Assembly (NCBI RefSeq): GCF_002931555.1
Contig: NZ_PSTZ01000009.1
Coordinates: forward strand, 1 to 64,000
DNA: 64,000 nt
Direction of reading: 5' to 3'
Source of the DNA: Pseudoclavibacter sp. RFBB5
Lineage (GTDB): Bacteria > Actinomycetota > Actinomycetes > Actinomycetales > Microbacteriaceae
The notes beneath the pieces are model-generated. The model saw only the letters and a list, made by a program, of their open reading frames with translations. It searched no databases and was not told the DNA's origin. This document shows, in pieces, positions 1 to 7,412 of this stretch; position 1 is the first letter of the stretch, and each line of letters opens with the position of its first letter. The position numbers and the translations under genes are program-made.

Positions 1-129
1 GCCGCTTCCCGTGAAGAGCGTCGAGCCGTCTCCGCGGGGGATGAGCGGGGCTCGGTCGATCCTGACGTGCCCGAGTCGCTCCTGGTAGTCGAGGTAGGCC
101 TTGCGAATATCCTGCGCATTCATGTTCAT
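1..129 (-). CDS. Alanyl-tRNA synthetase-like protein, N-terminal fragment (cut by window edge)
   Basis: Only the first 43 codons are inside the window; the gene runs off the left end. The peptide starts MNMNAQDIRKAYLDYQERLG and continues with a Leu-Ile-Pro then Thr-Leu-Phe-Thr-Gly-Ser-Gly segment. This matches the start of class II alanyl-tRNA synthetases, where a helix ending in a Gly-His pair is followed by the Leu-(Val/Ile)-Pro...Leu-Leu-Phe-Thr-Asn-Ala-Gly strand. The ATG at 129 has a GGAGGT ribosome site 11 bases upstream; a second in-frame ATG lies at 123. It begins 67 bases after the DedA/MprF-like gene on the same strand, so the two are probably one transcript. It may be the main alaS, but the position beside a lipid aminoacyltransferase suggests an AlaRS paralogue (inference). 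Confidence 0.65.
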   Translation of the reverse strand, partial: MNMNAQDIRKAYLDYQERLGHVRIDRAPLIPRGDGSTLFTGSG

Positions 130-196
130 TGTGCTTCGTTACCTCCGGTTGGTCGTGCGAGTGTCAGGGAGTGGCGGTGCAGAGACGGCGGGATGC

Positions 197-2965
197 CTAC
201 TTCCCTCCACTGAGTCCAGCTCTGATGATCTGTCCGGTCGTGGCGGTGGGCAGGTACGCGCGGGTCAGTCCGAGTCCGATGCGTGGAAGATCTGCTTCGT
301 CGCGGTAGAGGAGGTACATGGGCTCGAATCGCGGGTTGAACTTCATCTTGAAGTTGTGCAGCGAAGAGAACCCATAGAGCGGCTCGAGGAGCTCGGAGAC
401 ACGGCCGAGTACTTGGTCGAGCGCTGTCGCCTCCTCCTCCCCCGAACCTGCCAGGGGTGCGCCGGAGAGCGACGCGAAGGCCGCGCCTTCGTCGCGGAAG
501 GCGAGCGCTGAGGAGATGATGAGGAACTCCATGACGGCTTTGAACCCACCGTCGCGGCGGCGCATGAGATCGAGCGTCCATCCGCGGATCTCGCCGTTCC
601 CGCTGTAGACGGGCAGCCAAGAGGTGACGCCATGAACGCTGCCGTCATCGTCGATCGCGAGCCCCAGGCGGACGGCGGGGTCGAGCGCCTCGTCGACGCC
701 CCCGAGCGTGAAGCCCATCTCGGGGAGTCCCTTGTCTCCGACCCAGTCTTCCGATATGGCGCGAACCTGCGCGAGCACGGCCCAGGGCTCTTCGGCGAGG
801 GTGGTCATCTTGAAGCGGATGCCTTCCCGCTCGGCGCGGTTCACGGCGGAGCGCACCGGCTGCCAGGGCTTGCCTTTGAGCTCGAGCCCTGGCAGGTCGA
901 TGATCGTGTCCTCTGCCACCTGCACGCGTAGCCAGCCCTTCGGCGCCGCATCGACTGTGGCCTTCGTGGCAGAGAAGAACGCTGGCGTTTGGCCGGCCAG
1001 CTCCGCCCTTGACGCGAAGTCGTGGACGAGCTGCTTGAGGTCATCGGCCGGGACAACCGGGTCGCCGAGCGCCAACGCGACACCGGAGTACTCCTGGTAG
1101 GCGACGTAGCCGCTCTTCTCGGCGTTCAACAGATAGTTGTTGCGCGGCCACATCGTCATCCAGGAGACACTGCTGCCACCGACCCTGGGGAGAATCTCGC
1201 GGGCCTCTTCGAGCGTGCCGCTGCGCTCACCGGAGATCGAGTTCTTCGAAGGCCTCAGGCGTACCCCGAAGGAGCGGCGGGCGACGATGAGGAACGCCAC
1301 GACGAGCACCCAGAGTAGCGAGCCGGCGAAGTTCATCGTGAGGCCGTCATCGAGGCTGCCGGTCACGAAGACAAGCACGCCGATGACCAGGAGCTCGAGG
1401 AGGTTGAAGATACCGAGCGCGAGGGCAACGATCCACGCGAAGCGCTGACCGCGTCGAATGCCGTTGGCGACGAGGAGGATCACGACGACGTCGAGCGCCA
1501 CACCGATCCACGTCTCAGTTTCCGCGGTCGACGTGCCCAATGGCCCATCCAGCGAGAAGAGGGCAGCGACGACCTGCGCTGCTCCCAGGCCGATGAGGGC
1601 CGTGAATGCGATGAGTCGGTCCTCGCGCGTGCTGGTCGCGAAGCCCGTCTCACGGTGCCGTTGTACCGCGTAGATCGTGAAGATAACGGCGACCGGGAGG
1701 AAGTGTTCGATGTCTGCCAGGTCGCCGACGTAGAGAAGGCGCAGCGACACGAGCGCGCCCAAGGTGAGTCCGAGACGCAACCGCCACGGCGGGCGCAGCA
1801 CCCACACGAGTCCTGCCGCGAGTGCGTAGAGACCGCCGGAGGCGCCGACATCGAGGTCGCCCGCAAGGCGCTGTGCCCATTCCCACCCGGTCCGAGCGAG
1901 CACCGCGACGATCGCGAGCGTGCCGAGCACCGCAAGCGCCTGGCCGGCGACGAACACGAGGGCAGTGCGCTTCCACCCGAAGCGGAACTCGAAGACGCCG
2001 CCGACGATGAGGAGTTGGACGATGATGATCGCGTAGTGCCAGGTGCCCGCGCCGATGAGCGACCCCGTGAGTGGCGTCCACCACAGGCCGGCCTCGATGC
2101 TTGGGAGGCCGAAGGCGATATTGCTGAACCAGGCCTGCTCGCGGGCAAGATGCCACATGGCGCCGCTCACGATGCCCACCGCCAGGATGACGATCACGAG
2201 CAGTGACGTGAACGGGGCGCGACGCCCGAACGCCACGATCGGCTTGAGCGCAGCCGCGAGGGCATCACGCACTGCATCACCGCCCGGCGCCGAAGCTTGC
2301 GCGTCCTGTGCTGCGGGGATGAGGAGGTCGAGTTCCTGCTCTGTTTCGCTCCCTGCCGCGGCATCTACCGGGCGTCGGCGCGCACGGTAGATCACTACCG
2401 TGGCGATGACGAGGATGAGAACGCCGCCGATCGCCAGCGCGGCCCAGCCCGACGCGTGGATGATCGCGAGTGCGCTCTTTCCGAGGGCCGCTGTGATGCT
2501 CGTGACAGCCGCAGCCCAAGCGATGCCACCGAGTGCGTTCGCGAGAAGGAAGCGACCGTAAGGCATGGCCATGGTGCCGGCGAGCGGCCCCGCGAAGACA
2601 CGGAGGATGGCGACGAAGCGACCGAAGAAGACCGCGTACGCGCCCCACTTCTGCATGAGTCCCGCGGCTGCGTTGATGCGAGTGACGCTGAAGTACTTCG
2701 GGAACCGCTGCGACAGGTAGCGCAGGAGTCTTGACCCCCATCGCTTGCCGATGTAGTAGCCGATCGAGTCGCCGATGATCGCACCGGCAGCCGCCGCAGC
2801 GCCGAGGAGCCATGGATCCACGCCCGTGCCAGCGATGCTCATGAGCACCGCGGCGATCAGCACGCTCTCACCGGGAAGGGGCAGCCCGAGGCTTTCCAAG
2901 GTGACGACGCTCGCCACCAGGAGAACGACAAGAAGCGGGGGGACGGCGATTAACCAGTCGAACAT
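197..2965 (-). CDS. DedA / rhomboid-like / MprF (DUF2156) fusion membrane protein
   Basis: A 922-residue protein from the ATG at 2965, which has GGAG five bases upstream; an open extension to 3013 lacks such a site. Residues about 1-210 resemble the DedA/SNARE-associated family (LGLPLPGE motif, then GDSIGYYIG). Residues about 270-440 look like a rhomboid core: a Trp-rich first loop, a Glu-Phe-Arg-Phe-Gly stretch, a GASG motif with Ser about 376, and a later His about 421. More membrane segments follow to about 580. The last 330 residues match the soluble C-terminal domain of MprF/LysX-type enzymes (DUF2156), which transfer an amino acid from aminoacyl-tRNA to phosphatidylglycerol. The likely role is modifying and perhaps flipping envelope lipids. 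An AlaRS-like gene follows, so alanine is a plausible substrate (inference). Confidence 0.85.
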   Translation of the reverse strand: MFDWLIAVPPLLVVLLVASVVTLESLGLPLPGESVLIAAVLMSIAGTGVDPWLLGAAAAAGAIIGDSIGYYIGKRWGSRLLRYLSQRFPKYFSVTRINAAAGLMQKWGAYAVFFGRFVAILRVFAGPLAGTMAMPYGRFLLANALGGIAWAAAVTSITAALGKSALAIIHASGWAALAIGGVLILVIATVVIYRARRRPVDAAAGSETEQELDLLIPAAQDAQASAPGGDAVRDALAAALKPIVAFGRRAPFTSLLVIVILAVGIVSGAMWHLAREQAWFSNIAFGLPSIEAGLWWTPLTGSLIGAGTWHYAIIIVQLLIVGGVFEFRFGWKRTALVFVAGQALAVLGTLAIVAVLARTGWEWAQRLAGDLDVGASGGLYALAAGLVWVLRPPWRLRLGLTLGALVSLRLLYVGDLADIEHFLPVAVIFTIYAVQRHRETGFATSTREDRLIAFTALIGLGAAQVVAALFSLDGPLGTSTAETETWIGVALDVVVILLVANGIRRGQRFAWIVALALGIFNLLELLVIGVLVFVTGSLDDGLTMNFAGSLLWVLVVAFLIVARRSFGVRLRPSKNSISGERSGTLEEAREILPRVGGSSVSWMTMWPRNNYLLNAEKSGYVAYQEYSGVALALGDPVVPADDLKQLVHDFASRAELAGQTPAFFSATKATVDAAPKGWLRVQVAEDTIIDLPGLELKGKPWQPVRSAVNRAEREGIRFKMTTLAEEPWAVLAQVRAISEDWVGDKGLPEMGFTLGGVDEALDPAVRLGLAIDDDGSVHGVTSWLPVYSGNGEIRGWTLDLMRRRDGGFKAVMEFLIISSALAFRDEGAAFASLSGAPLAGSGEEEATALDQVLGRVSELLEPLYGFSSLHNFKMKFNPRFEPMYLLYRDEADLPRIGLGLTRAYLPTATTGQIIRAGLSGGK

Positions 2966-3105
2966 ATTCTCCAGCTGTCCGTGAGAGAGCTCACAGTGAA
3001 AGGGGTGGTGCACTCCGCGGATTCATGGCTGACTTCAGATGTGAGCGCAGAACCGCGGCGGCCACGGTTGGCCGCACGTCTGAGGAACTTCGATGTCGAC
3101 GGTTG

Positions 3106-3423
3106 CTACATGCTCTGCATAGCTGGAGCAACGACCCCGGCGATGATCGGCACGAGGCTCAGCACGGTCCCGAGAATGCCCAGATACCGAGGGCGAGCGA
3201 CGATGACGGCGATGAGTCCGAGCAGGACGCCTACGACGCCGACGACCATGGAGGCGTAGTAGCAGACGACCGCCAGGACGGCTGCGCCGGAGAGGCCTTG
3301 GCCGTCTGCTGCTGGCCCGATGATCCAGAAGCAGAGCATCATCGCGGTGGCGAGTGCCCCCACGATCACGGAGGTTGTCGCTAAGCCTCGGCGGGAGGTG
3401 CGCGGTGCCGAATGAGTGGTCAT
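3106..3423 (-). CDS. Small hydrophobic membrane protein
   Basis: This is a 105-residue protein with a short basic N-terminus followed by three hydrophobic stretches (about residues 15-35, 45-70 and 80-100), so it is almost certainly a small integral membrane protein. I do not recognise a family; many actinobacteria carry DUF4190-like proteins of similar size and topology. It starts 48 bases after the stop of the esterase gene on the same strand, which suggests co-transcription. An AGGG-type ribosome site precedes the ATG at 3423. Its 3' end lies 140 bases before the start of the DedA/MprF-like gene. No catalytic motif is visible and function is unknown. Confidence 0.6.
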   Translation of the reverse strand: MTTHSAPRTSRRGLATTSVIVGALATAMMLCFWIIGPAADGQGLSGAAVLAVVCYYASMVVGVVGVLLGLIAVIVARPRYLGILGTVLSLVPIIAGVVAPAMQSM

Positions 3424-3471
3424 CAGGGGAGCCCTTCGAGTGTGTGGGGGATTTCGACGCGGTCGCGTCTT

Positions 3472-4776
3472 CTACGTTCCGGCGGTGAGGCCGAGGATCG
3501 GGAAGAGGATCGTGAATCCCTCAGCCAAGCCCCCGGTGACCGCGGTTCCGCCGTGGTCGGCGCCCTGGACGATGAACAGAGTGGTGTTCATGCCGACGGA
3601 TTTGGTTTCGTTGGAGATGGTGGTCGCCATAGACACGAACGCAGGGTCTTCGCTACCTGCCGTGAAGACGGCGGTCATGCCGGCGTACGTTCCGGGTGGG
3701 GCGGCCTGCATGATGCTGATGGGCTTCGAGGCCTCGAAGGCGGCGCTGTCGCCTCCATAGATGTCCGTGGTGACGGCGTCCGAATCTTCGGACCCCGGGT
3801 GCTGTTCGCCGGAGACGCTGATGATGTTCTTGAACGTGCCCGGGTCCTTCGCGCCGTACTTGGCCGCGCATCCGCCGCCGTTGGAGTAGCCGGCGATGGT
3901 CCAGTACTTGGGGTCCTGGATGATGTTGAGGTTCGCGTTGGCCCAGTTGACGACGTCCGTGGTGACGTAGGTTTCTGCGTTCCCGAACTTCGCGGAGTCG
4001 GCGCAGGCCGGGTCTACATCGCCTTGCCCGCCGAGTTGGTCGGCGACGATCACGATGGGAGCGAGGCCGTTGTGCTGAGCCGCGAACTCGTCGAGCACTC
4101 CACTGATGATGGTGGGGTCGGGATTGCCGACGTACCCCATCATCATGATGACGACAGGCAGCGCAGGTGCATCCTGCACAAGCGCTGCTGGGGGGAGGTA
4201 GATGCCGGCGTCGCGAGCCACGAACCCCGATTCCGTTCCCGGGATGGGCGCAGAGCCGCGGGTACCCGCCGCGGGCATATCCGCTGGAGGCTTCCAGGTG
4301 GTGGCGAGCGGCTGGGTTGGCGCCTGCCGGTTGTCAGCGTTGAATTCGGGAAGCGTGATCTGGTCTTCTTCGACGATCCCGAACACGGACCCGAGGGTGG
4401 GGTTGAGGCCGTAGAGCGCGTTGATGCCGGTCGCTCCCGCGAGAACATACGCGAGGATCGCGACGCTCGCGACGAGCTTGCGCCAGGGCTTTGCGTCCGG
4501 GAAGGACGCGACCGCAAGGCCGATGCCGGCGAGCGTGAGCGCGGCCCACACTCCTACCGGGCCGGGTAGATCCACGCCGAACAGGTCAAGAGCGTTTCCG
4601 CCGAGGTAGATCAGGAAGCCAAGAAGTGCACCAGCCGCGACGCCGATCACCGCTCGCAGCACCCATTTCCGGTTCATCTCGCGCACACACAGGGTGATGG
4701 TCACGGCAACTGCGAGGGCGTAGATGATCCACATCACCGGGGAATCGATGATGGGCAGCGCCAGGACTCCGCTCAT
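3472..4776 (-). CDS. Membrane-anchored alpha/beta-hydrolase esterase
   Basis: A 434-residue protein if it starts at the ATG at 4776; a later ATG at 4734 is also possible, and the frame stays open to 5145 across non-coding sequence. The first 130 residues hold about four hydrophobic segments; the rest looks extracellular. The catalytic part belongs to the putative-esterase (PF00756-like) group: a nucleophile elbow Gly-Tyr-Ser-Asn-Gly within AGYSNGGGCAAKYG, and a late His in GADHGG. This fold includes mycolyltransferases and esterase D. The N-terminal membrane domain plus hydrolase layout is common in actinobacteria. The substrate cannot be read from sequence. The small membrane protein at 3106-3423 probably shares its transcript. 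Confidence 0.75.
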   Translation of the reverse strand: MSGVLALPIIDSPVMWIIYALAVAVTITLCVREMNRKWVLRAVIGVAAGALLGFLIYLGGNALDLFGVDLPGPVGVWAALTLAGIGLAVASFPDAKPWRKLVASVAILAYVLAGATGINALYGLNPTLGSVFGIVEEDQITLPEFNADNRQAPTQPLATTWKPPADMPAAGTRGSAPIPGTESGFVARDAGIYLPPAALVQDAPALPVVIMMMGYVGNPDPTIISGVLDEFAAQHNGLAPIVIVADQLGGQGDVDPACADSAKFGNAETYVTTDVVNWANANLNIIQDPKYWTIAGYSNGGGCAAKYGAKDPGTFKNIISVSGEQHPGSEDSDAVTTDIYGGDSAAFEASKPISIMQAAPPGTYAGMTAVFTAGSEDPAFVSMATTISNETKSVGMNTTLFIVQGADHGGTAVTGGLAEGFTILFPILGLTAGT

Positions 4777-5011
4777 GCGCGTGCGGGAAACGACATCGAT
4801 GACTCCTCGATCGCGCATCTCGCTACGCGGCCAAGGGGGCCGCTCTGACGACCGGATGCAAGCTGGGGACAATCTCTCACAGGATGGAAAAGAACACCAC
4901 TGCCGCGCGGAGACGTTCAGACGAATTTCTCGCCGCCCGGGACCATATCCGCGCGTAAACACCCCGATTTGCTCGACCCGGGTCCAGGTGTGTATATTCG
5001 CAAGCCATGGG

Positions 5012-5062: not shown

Positions 5063-5210
5063 ATTTTCTCGGTGACCGATACGCGACAATTCGGCATCGG
5101 TGCGTGCAAGATTGAACATCTCTCGGCGTAGTCCGCCGCAAGCATTTCTCGCCGTACACTTTGCGCATGTCAACTCTGCGAGTCTCATCGAGTGTCCGGT
5201 TCTTGGTTCG

Positions 5211-6641
5211 ATGACTGGCACTGCGGGGTCCGGGCCTGACAGCGCCGCAACCGATGGAGTCACGCTCGAGCGCGCGCTGAGCAATCGGCACATTCAACTC
5301 ATAGCTGTGGGTGGCGCCATCGGAACAGGGCTGTTCCTCGGGGCCGGAATCGGAATCAACAAGTCGGGCCCATCGATTCTGCTCGTCTACGTCATCACCG
5401 GCGCGATGCTGTTCGTCATGATGCGCGCCATGGGTGAGCTGCTCCTCTCGAATCTCGGATACCGCACATTCCAAGACTTTGCCGCCGCGTACCTGGGTGA
5501 GTGGGCTCGGTTCTTCCTCGGCTGGTCGTATTGGCTATGCCTCATCTCTATCGCAGCAGCAGACATGGTCGGCGTCCAGACCTATGCGAGGTACTGGTGG
5601 CCAGACCTCCCGGGGTGGGTTCCCATGGTCGTGGCCATCGCCTTCGTGCTGGCGCTCAACCTCATCGCGGTAAGGGCATTCGGCGAAGCGGAGTTCTGGT
5701 TCGCGCTCGTGAAGATCGTGACCATCCTTGGACTTATCGTGGTCGGCATCATCTTGATCGTGACGGCGTTCACGGCCCCAAGCGGAGACCGCGCGAGCAT
5801 CACGCACCTCTGGGATGACGGGGGCTTTTTCCCGAACGGATTCGTTGGATTCCTGGCGGGCTTCCAAATCGCGGTTTTCTCCTTCGGCTGCATCGAGCTC
5901 ATCGGCACGACAGCCGCCGAAGCCAAAGACCCCGAGAAGAACCTCCCGAAAGCGATCAACCAGGTGCCGCTGCGCATCCTCTTCTTCTACGTGGGCGCAC
6001 TGGCCGTCATCATGTGCGTGACGCCATGGAGCAAGATCGAGCCCGGCACGAGCCCGTTCGTGGCGTTGTTCGTGCTCACCGGCTTCGGGGGCGCCGCGGC
6101 GCTCATCAACGCCGTGGTCATGTCCTCCGCCGTGTCGGCCGCGAACAGCGGCTTCTTCTCCTCGAGCCGCATGGCCTATGGCCTGGCGACGACAGCCCAG
6201 GCACCTGCACGGCTGGGGCGCCTCACGAAGACCGCCGTTCCCGGCAACGCGCTTCTGCTTTCATGCGCAGTCGTCCTGGTTGCCGGCTCGCTCGGCCTCA
6301 TCTTCGATGACGCCTTCCAGCTCGTGACGGCGGTGTCTTCCATCCTGTTCATCTTCGTGTGGGCGATGATCCTGGTGTCATATCTCGCATATCGACGCCA
6401 GCGACCGGATCTCCACACGGCATCCACCTACCGCCTGCGCTGGGGTGTGCCCCTGGCATGGAGCGTCCTCGGATTCTTCGCATTCATCTTGGTGCTGCTC
6501 GCCGTGTTCGAGGACACAAGAGGCCCCCTACTGCTGACCCCCATATGGTTCGGCATCCTGGGCGTCGCGTGGGCAATGGTGCGACGCAGATCACGTCAGA
6601 CTTCCGAGGCGGCGACCCACCGCTCCCCCGCCGAGGCCTGA
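5211..6641 (+). CDS. Amino-acid permease of the AAT/CycA type
   Basis: A 476-residue polytopic protein with about twelve membrane segments, of the amino acid-polyamine-organocation superfamily. The signature at its N-terminus, RHIQLIAVGGAIGTGLFLGA, is the classic first helix of AAT permeases (CycA, AroP, ProY, GabP). MRAMGELLL follows, then the FWFALVK motif. It imports an amino acid by proton symport; CycA-like transporters carry D-serine, D-alanine and glycine, but the exact substrate is not fixed by sequence. The ATG at 5211 is chosen because MTGTAG then a hydrophilic lead precedes the conserved helix; no strong ribosome site is seen. It stands alone, transcribed away from the esterase, with recombinase remains downstream. 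Confidence 0.87.
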   Translation: MTGTAGSGPDSAATDGVTLERALSNRHIQLIAVGGAIGTGLFLGAGIGINKSGPSILLVYVITGAMLFVMMRAMGELLLSNLGYRTFQDFAAAYLGEWARFFLGWSYWLCLISIAAADMVGVQTYARYWWPDLPGWVPMVVAIAFVLALNLIAVRAFGEAEFWFALVKIVTILGLIVVGIILIVTAFTAPSGDRASITHLWDDGGFFPNGFVGFLAGFQIAVFSFGCIELIGTTAAEAKDPEKNLPKAINQVPLRILFFYVGALAVIMCVTPWSKIEPGTSPFVALFVLTGFGGAAALINAVVMSSAVSAANSGFFSSSRMAYGLATTAQAPARLGRLTKTAVPGNALLLSCAVVLVAGSLGLIFDDAFQLVTAVSSILFIFVWAMILVSYLAYRRQRPDLHTASTYRLRWGVPLAWSVLGFFAFILVLLAVFEDTRGPLLLTPIWFGILGVAWAMVRRRSRQTSEAATHRSPAEA

Positions 6642-6838: not shown

Positions 6839-7295
6839 CGCGTCAGCACCGCGACTCAGGATGCGCAGCTCCAGCTCGACGCACTCGTCGACGTCGGCGT
6901 CCAGGAGCGCGACGTCTTCGCCGACATCACCTCCGTACGCCTGACTGCGATCACACGCCGGGGCGTGACGCGACTCCTCAAGCGCGGAGACCGGCAATAC
7001 TGTCGTCTCGTCGCGGGTCGATCACGTGGGGCAAGCACTCATCGACGCCCGCGACACCGTCAACTTCTCGCGGGAGTGCAGCATCAACGTGCGCTCAGTC
7101 GCCGACGCTATCGATCCGGCGACGCAAACGGGCCGCCTCATGCTGAACATGCTCTCCACCCTCGCCGAGTACGAGCGTGAACTCATCGTCCAGCTACTCT
7201 GGCGCAACAAGATGCGCCAGTCGGACTCGTCTAACGCAATCGGAGTAGCACGTCCGAACATCGGCTCGAAGCTGCGAGGCATTCCAGCTGGTATC
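6839..7295 (+). pseudogene. Decayed serine recombinase (resolvase/invertase) remnant
   Basis: Two pieces in different frames together resemble one Tn3-type resolvase. The first (from 6839) reads RVSTATQDAQLQLDALVDVG, matching the family's RVS(T)xxQ active-site start, and has a stop codon just before it where the true N-terminus should be. After a frame change near 7015-7026, the second reads TGRLMLNMLSTLAEYERELI, matching the family's TGRL...LAEFERELI helix. The DNA-binding helix-turn-helix end is missing; the frame runs on into the tRNA-Lys region. This is a fossil, not a functional gene. It marks a past mobile element or cassette insertion near tRNA-Lys. The 197 bases before it (6642-6838) hold no recognisable feature. 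Confidence 0.75.
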
Positions 7296-7339
7296 TCAAC
7301 GAGACCGCAAGCACTGCAGGTGGTCAGCAGCGAGAAGAG

Positions 7340-7412
7340 TGGGCCCGGTGGGGCTCGAACCCACGACCCGCGGATTAAAAGTCCGATGCTCTGCCAACTG
7401 AGCTACAGGCCC
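7340..7412 (-). tRNA. tRNA-Lys (anticodon UUU)
   Basis: The minus strand folds as a complete 73-base tRNA. The acceptor is GGGCCTG/CGGGCCC with one T-G pair, the D arm is TAGCTCAGTTGGCAGAGCA, the anticodon loop is ACTTTTAAT with anticodon TTT, the variable loop is short, and the T arm is GTGGG-TTCGAGC-CCCAC. The discriminator is A at 7340. CCA is not encoded and would be added after transcription. It lies between a resolvase fossil and a DUF1801 gene on the opposite strand. Confidence 0.96.

Follow-up and report, generated by a model that had tools for sequence, protein, structure and literature searches.

The first 64,000 nucleotides (forward strand) of contig NZ_PSTZ01000009.1 from Pseudoclavibacter sp. 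RFBB5, a member of the Microbacteriaceae, constitute the window analysed here. Most of an alanyl-lipid operon is likely to be encoded in the window. In the favoured reading, a dedicated, editing-free alanyl-tRNA synthetase (AlaRS) provides the Ala-tRNA that is used by an alanyl-lipid synthase. The proposed operon is organized in the order esterase, small protein, mprF2, and alaS2, where mprF2 encodes a fusion of DedA, rhomboid-like, and MprF-type synthase domains and alaS2 encodes a short AlaRS (Table 1). In the proposed pathway, the short AlaRS would charge tRNA(Ala), alanine would be moved from Ala-tRNA to phosphatidylglycerol or diacylglycerol by the GNAT-type domain of MprF2, the DedA domain together with a rhomboid-like pseudoprotease would carry the alanyl-lipid outward, and the esterase may take the alanine off again. 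The membrane enzyme probably attaches alanine to membrane lipids. The two gene products, the short AlaRS and MprF2, probably work together because their pairing recurs in other actinobacteria. The genes may be co-transcribed, and window positions 1–3600 contain no terminator-like sites compared with 1.2 expected in shuffled sequences, which is weak evidence.

The housekeeping AlaRS of RFBB5, encoded on contig C1, is 889 residues long and contains catalytic, SAD, and DHHA1 domains. The AlaRS-like gene of the window is therefore not the only alaS of the genome, and because a full-length AlaRS is present, the second one would be free for a special task. In 29 complete loci, the short AlaRS has a length of 463–494 residues from the aligned start. 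Ten complete short relatives score 337–372 bits against the class II (A) AlaRS model, the cut-off of which is 30.3, and can be assigned to this class. Three of the short relatives score 339–381 bits against the model of the complete bacterial AlaRS (TIGR00344), below its cut-off of 457. Neither the SAD editing domain nor the DHHA1 domain was found in any of the ten actinobacterial short AlaRS scanned with Pfam; the editing domain is present in the longer relatives L114, from Saccharibacteria, and L126, both from metagenome-assembled genomes (MAGs). Residues 4–463 of L083 align with the crystallised 441-residue catalytic fragment of AlaRS (3hxu). No tRNA genes were detected near the short AlaRS in the 12 loci scanned. 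Asn303 and Asp400, which we take to read the G3:U70 pair in Escherichia coli AlaRS, are both kept in L083 by count. Judged by its domains, the short AlaRS keeps the parts required for aminoacylation and for recognition of the tRNA acceptor, and is without the editing domain.

By its relationships, the second AlaRS does not derive from the host alaS. It is of the Saccharibacteria type, and the nearest full-length relatives of the short AlaRS are those of Saccharibacteria, which are parasites of actinobacteria. A genome collection was scanned with one short AlaRS, and the best 80 of 588 loci were kept. These comprise 8 actinobacterial loci, 53 with Patescibacteria names (8 of them Saccharibacteria), 10 from unnamed bacteria, and 9 with other names. 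Among the 72 non-actinobacterial frames, 68 are 585–665 codons long; the remaining four comprise two that run off the end of the locus, a split frame, and a masked frame. Within the class to which one Saccharibacterium belongs, a match was obtained in 143 of 147 genomes, usually a single gene of 600–715 codons; G323, G332, G341, and G354 of this class contain partial AlaRS frames only. Identity to the AlaRS of Candidatus Saccharibacteria reaches 70% over residues 1–464 (G333; 69% for L114). The Saccharibacteria frames mostly have 600–715 codons, with a tRNA_SAD domain in the one scanned (L114), whereas the actinobacterial forms end before it.

In AlaRS trees of 112 and 67 rows, both obtained by quick searches, the actinobacterial short forms are divided into two groups, and the host-type AlaRS lies far off, as the outgroup of the 112-row tree. 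Group A contains Rhodococcus, Rhodococcoides, Williamsia, Pseudonocardia, and the family genus g79, and group B contains Brachybacterium, Brevibacterium, Subtercola, and the remaining family genera with a short AlaRS. Approximately unbiased (AU) tests, performed on smaller sets, rejected groups A and B as a single clade (p 0.0003 and p 0.00025), as well as a Saccharibacteria clade that excludes both groups (p 0.00006). Group B is nested in Saccharibacteria, with starred branches of 100 and 97 in the 67-row tree. The position of group A beside rather than inside Saccharibacteria was not rejected (p 0.25), and its nearest relative is L126; the donor of group A was either a member of the Saccharibacteria or a near relative. 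Together, the trees and tests support two separate acquisitions of the short AlaRS by actinobacteria. Since every scanned member of both groups is without the editing domain, either there were two losses of this domain, or the sampling missed donors that were already truncated. The Saccharibacteria-like AlaRS genes are not attributed to contamination, because on inspection they are located on large contigs, including a 1.46-Mb contig of Rhodococcoides fascians and the single-contig genomes G230 and G095. Carriage on plasmids was rejected as well: 65 PLSDB records match, all with less than 60% identity, and the highest identity is 40% among the matches listed (15 of 65). The 437-codon L154, a candidate for a true short AlaRS in Patescibacteria, was dismissed, as a masked stretch is followed by sequence resembling the editing domain in a different frame. 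Two AlaRS-like frames of 570–586 codons from other genomes of the phylum (G492:C154:5297-6559 and G614:C79:45970-47289) are 45–46% identical to the short AlaRS of Williamsia, and that of G492 is accompanied in the genome by the usual AlaRS of 882 codons. They read as further transfers or contamination.

MprF2 belongs to the DedA/VTT proteins by its VTT domain (PF09335, 58.8 bits, cut-off 33.9) and to the MprF-type aminoacyl-lipid synthases by its LPG_synthase_C domain (PF09924, residues 589–887, 232 bits, cut-off 27.5). It falls outside the canonical bifunctional MprF family (NF033480), matching only over residues 546–902 with 157 bits against a cut-off of 600, and outside LysX (NF002821, 103 bits against 742), and has no lysyl-tRNA synthetase (LysRS) domain. 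The only membrane-domain families recognized by Pfam in the whole protein are VTT and, weakly, Rhomboid_2. A first-pass annotation, made from the nucleotide sequence, had described the 922-residue fusion of DedA, rhomboid-like, and MprF domains with Ser376 in a GASG motif and His421, and an AlaRS-like gene beginning 67 bases downstream on the same strand, and all of these features were recovered. Hydropathy indicates ten transmembrane (TM) segments between a charged loop at residues 193–251 and the synthase, with eight lysines or arginines within the 40 residues after the last segment, and the GNAT-type domain is predicted from this estimate to be cytoplasmic. The window mprF2 is an extra copy: a second mprF gene encoding 922 residues is located on contig C12 and is 80% identical in DNA and 84% identical in protein, and the gene downstream of it is not an AlaRS. 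The DedA domain, which the annotation had included in the module, is not a constant part, because the AlaRS-linked MprFs of g51 and g77 (frames of 699–701 codons) align from residue 233 or later. Both AlaRS-linked MprFs of Pseudonocardia match the window protein from residue 216 or later only, and stand-alone DedA frames of Pseudonocardia (G309:C129:8982-9599 and G310:C3:115737-116345) are 47–49% identical to the window DedA domain; it is possible that the separate DedA and MprF are a split version of the fusion. Rhomboid-spanning DUF2156 relatives with 42% identity are encoded on plasmids of Rhodococcus qingshengii (NZ_AP023173.1 303751-305820) and Tsukamurella (NZ_LR134465.1 269279-271177).

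The middle part of MprF2 can be read as a rhomboid-like pseudoprotease that takes the place of the usual MprF flippase. When the middle segment was scanned alone, it matched the Rhomboid family (PF01694) with 26.4 bits, above the gathering score of 22.6, and is thus assigned to the Rhomboid superfamily; the scan of the whole protein gave only a weak Rhomboid_2 match (E 0.023), below the cut-off. Among 22 MprF middle domains of relatives (alignment A2, from 46 rows at hand), six match Rhomboid and nine match Rhomboid_2 (E 0.01). When its profile was compared with that of eight genus proteins of the rhomboid family (alignment A3, from ten such loci), GASG was placed on GASG and His421 on their catalytic histidine, with E 4e-4 and a probability of only 36%. 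The domain is therefore rhomboid-related by profile, as had been proposed. An AlphaFold2 prediction of the full 922-residue protein, based on four aligned sequences, had a mean predicted local distance difference test (pLDDT) score of 37.5 and was set aside as too poor. The alignment of Ser376 and His421 with the catalytic pair of the genus proteins and the PF01694 match above the gathering score would also be expected if the domain were a functional intramembrane protease, cleaving a substrate as one task of the module. However, this explanation is very improbable. In three MprFs that are AlaRS-linked (Williamsia and both Pseudonocardia), threonine takes the position of Ser376. The TM2 asparagine, a defining feature of rhomboid intramembrane proteases, is present in the rhomboid proteins of the genus and is not kept in the MprF middle domain, so that the combination of Ser-His pair and TM2 asparagine is incomplete in MprF2. 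Both the histidine and the serine are lacking in two g12, one g27, and two Rhodococcus-type MprFs examined. Protease activity of the middle domain is therefore unlikely, and the processing of membrane proteins suggested in the annotation is unsupported or at best uncertain.

The pairing of the short AlaRS with the rhomboid-type MprF was determined in 299 Microbacteriaceae genomes, Subtercola included. A rhomboid-type MprF was counted if the match started at or before query residue 250 with E <1e-115; at most three candidates were scored per genome, and split or lower matches may therefore be missed. A short AlaRS was counted if it had ≥60% identity from the query start, with RFBB5 counted from fragments and G253 from a partial match. 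Both genes are present in 16 of the genomes, the rhomboid-type MprF in 38, and the short AlaRS in 23. The co-occurrence has a Fisher p of 2.5e-11 by genome, uncorrected for kinship, and a p of 9e-5 by genus, with both genes in 6 of 85 genera. Within Pseudoclavibacter, the short AlaRS occurs in five of ten genomes (in RFBB5 as fragments) and the 922-residue fusion in the same five; the two genes are apart in the four relatives of RFBB5. A set of 32 genomes with the short AlaRS was assembled from the 23 of the family, G004, G005, and eight named genomes, Subtercola boreus (L113, identical to G209) being counted once. The short AlaRS adjoins a rhomboid-type MprF in 11 of them, in three gene orders and six genera. 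The genes are in tandem with mprF first and a gap of 67 bp in the window, and in tandem with alaS first and 13 bp between the matched stretches in G095. They are convergent in six genomes of g51 and g77 (G147, G198, G059, G182, G271, and G230; about 40–140 bp between the matched stretches), and in Williamsia and two Pseudonocardia (67–286 bp). Mapping of adjacency onto the synthase tree requires four changes, three of which are forced by starred branches, and both separately acquired AlaRS clades have members adjoining MprF. Co-occurrence and repeated adjacency lend support to the earlier suggestion that a tRNA-charging enzyme is supplied to the MprF-type synthase in trans.

The esterase (PF00756) and the 105-residue open reading frame are encoded upstream of mprF2 on the same strand. 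In Williamsia and both Pseudonocardia, the gene directly next to MprF encodes an esterase of the same family. Such an esterase also accompanies MprF in G002, in one Rhodococcus genome, and in two genomes of g12, and it flanks MprF in 4 of the 11 AlaRS-adjacent genomes. In g51, a different alpha/beta hydrolase is encoded directly upstream of AlaRS. PesT, a putative esterase, is encoded beside the corynebacterial synthase AlaDAGS, and the window esterase is likewise beside a synthase. Neither the esterase nor the missing editing domain, the Saccharibacteria type, and the non-host origin of the AlaRS had been noted in the first-pass annotation.

Several observations weigh against a dedicated alanyl-lipid operon. 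The AlaRS and MprF genes are not adjacent in 21 of the 32 genomes, being apart or on different contigs, a few of them near contig ends of drafts. The Brachybacterium and Brevibacterium genomes searched have no synthase-domain match, by the counting criteria above, six g12 genomes and one g27 genome are without a rhomboid-type MprF, and the short AlaRS is missing from 22 of the 38 genomes with such an MprF. The AlaRS of the window is visible for 42 codons, and its other end was assigned by elimination. The esterase is missing from 39 of 45 MprF loci checked, three of which repeat others and for which the available upstream flank varied from 0 to about 7.5 kb; it is absent at the C12 mprF copy and at the other seven AlaRS-adjacent loci (G095, g51, and g77). 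The topology of MprF2 is a hydropathy estimate, and an MprF-like domain of Mycobacterium tuberculosis LysX2 was found outside the cytoplasm (PMC8974105). Finally, it is the AlaRS that singles out alanine as the substrate of MprF2, because the synthase domain matches the alanyl enzyme 4v34 (83 bits), the lysyl enzyme 4v36 (79 bits), and LpiA (100 bits) about equally.

Two explanations are consistent with parts of these data. The short AlaRS could be a stand-alone spare or inhibitor-resistant enzyme that spread horizontally, with its location near MprF incidental or due to shared envelope-stress regulation. In the Brachybacterium and Brevibacterium genomes without a synthase match, the short AlaRS is encoded beside ribonucleotide reductase genes, in Brachybacterium also near an integrase-core gene, and in one Rhodococcus genome it lies among cobalamin-pathway genes. 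The distribution is patchy, with the short AlaRS in 2 of 396 genomes of an even draw of Actinomycetota (RFBB5 and G149). However, the recurrent adjacency to MprF, in three orders and in both acquired clades, is hard to obtain by chance, and the lack of the editing domain in all ten short proteins scanned is odd for a spare translation enzyme, so that we consider a spare AlaRS unlikely. A somewhat smaller chance is given to MprF2 drawing on ordinary tRNAs for lysine or a different amino acid, with the AlaRS pairing having no effect on the product. The similarity of the synthase domain to the lysyl enzymes LpiA and MprF, and the many rhomboid-MprF genomes of the family without the short AlaRS, are in its favour. 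It is opposed by the association of MprF with the short AlaRS, and by the corynebacterial MprF homologue AlaDAGS, which makes alanyl-diacylglycerol and alanyl-phosphatidylglycerol (PMC10580965), alanine thus being a known substrate in the phylum. The dedicated supply of Ala-tRNA to the lipid synthase remains the preferred reading.

Table 1. Positions of the operon genes, domains, and contig-end features in the window
Feature	Position	Strand	Basis or remark
mprF2, 922-residue DedA, rhomboid-like, and aminoacyl-lipid synthase protein	197..2965	-	Open reading frame, Pfam
DedA/VTT domain, residues 31–157	2495..2875	-	PF09335, 58.8 bits; coordinates converted from residues
Rhomboid-like core including Ser376 (GASG)	1742..2083	-	PF01694 over gathering score
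LPG_synthase_C, MprF-type tRNA-dependent synthase domain	305..1201	-	Pfam
Shine-Dalgarno-like stretch GGAGGTAACGAAGC 5' of the AlaRS-like gene	133..146	-	
alaS2, initial 42 codons of the short AlaRS gene, ended by the contig end	1..129	-	
99 bp equal to the end of contig C5, repeat-caused assembly break inside the AlaRS-like gene	1..99	.	
Small open reading frame, 105 residues, hydrophobic by eye, between esterase and mprF2	3106..3423	-	No Pfam match
Esterase, hydrophobic N-terminal part; exact start approximate	3472..4785	-	PF00756

The mprF2 gene starts with an ATG at position 2965, a few bases downstream of a GGAG, and alaS2 starts at position 129, 67 bases past the mprF2 stop codon. The alaS2 fragment matches Pfam tRNA-synt_2c with E 5e-5 and 22.4 bits, under the cut-off of 30.3, because just 42 residues are present. 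Window base 1 is the end of contig C18, the terminal 99 bp of which are identical to the last 99 bp of contig C5, and two later fragments of the gene, one opening C3 and the other closing C1, also have exactly 99 bp in common. The matching contig ends indicate that the genome has two copies of the inner part of the AlaRS-like gene, which the short-read assembler merged into one. In four genus relatives (L052–L055), a single short AlaRS begins like the C5 piece and finishes like the C3 piece, and has the same flanking genes. By elimination, we infer that the window alaS2 continues into the end of C1 and stops after ...TAGLPS. The deacetylase gene at the C1 end, the presumed other flank, is well matched in only one genus relative (G002, 57%), too few matches to delimit the insertion site in relatives without the gene. 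At both 99-bp repeat ends, the sequences of the two alaS copies do not differ, compared with 80% DNA identity of the mprF copies, which reads as recent copying or gene conversion of alaS. A serine recombinase fragment (PF00239, E 8e-8) is located at window positions 7026–7301 (+), beside a tRNA-Lys gene at 7339–7412 (-), and the G+C content of the first 9 kb is 60–66.5% in 1-kb steps compared with 68.3% for the whole window; together, these features hint that the module sits in a genomic island. An amino-acid permease at positions 5196–6638 (+) is divergent from the esterase. Its best NCBIfam model is that of a D-serine/D-alanine/glycine transporter, with 613 bits, below the cut-off of 732, and it may bring in alanine or be unrelated.

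Dedicated synthetases are known for transferases of the MprF fold: LysRS in LysX, seryl-tRNA synthetase (SerRS) in the case of VlmL, and aspartyl-tRNA synthetase (AspRS) in fungal ErdS (PMC2922099, PMC9437257). The only AlaRS entries in a table of PMC9437257 are aminoacyl:carrier-protein ligases. Mycobacterial and corynebacterial LysX is similar to the window system in tying a dedicated aminoacyl-tRNA synthetase to an MprF-type synthase in Actinobacteria (PMC9437257, PMC10580965), whereas the synthetase here is an AlaRS of Saccharibacteria type, encoded by a separate gene rather than fused, and the membrane part is rhomboid-like with DedA. In both VlmL-VlmA, a SerRS paralogue with an MprF-like transferase (PMC2922099), and the fungal AspRS-MprF fusion ErdS (PMC9437257), a special synthetase feeds a transferase of the MprF fold. 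They differ from the window system in amino acids and targets, and their synthetases are described as paralogues, whereas the window AlaRS was acquired by horizontal transfer. The AlaDAGS enzyme known from Corynebacterium glutamicum and C. pseudotuberculosis, studied in a strain that is also without pesT, resembles MprF2 as an actinobacterial MprF homologue with the alanyl-lipid products named above, but no dedicated AlaRS is mentioned in the accessible part of the article (PMC10580965). In the full-text literature searched, outside of which most subscription journals lie, no paper was found that ties MprF or alanyl-phosphatidylglycerol to an alanyl-tRNA synthetase, or that deals with a rhomboid together with a phosphatidylglycerol lysyltransferase or with the transfer of a Saccharibacteria AlaRS.

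A dedicated synthetase together with an MprF-type synthase is thus a known kind of system, and a separate, editing-free AlaRS for lipid modification would be new. If the proposal is correct, a housekeeping translation gene has passed from Saccharibacteria or their near relatives to the phylum that they parasitise. We tentatively suggest, as a possibility less likely than the operon itself, that actinobacteria captured the AlaRS of Saccharibacteria or a close relative at least twice, each time in a form that ends ahead of the editing domain and is tied to lipid alanylation, and that such an enzyme could also feed serine or glycine, giving mixed aminoacyl-lipids, possibly as a defence against antimicrobial peptides or parasites. 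This raises the question of whether a second synthetase without proofreading is kept because its product never meets the ribosome. A further implication is a possible way of making aminoacyl-lipids in which the linked synthetase would determine the amino acid.

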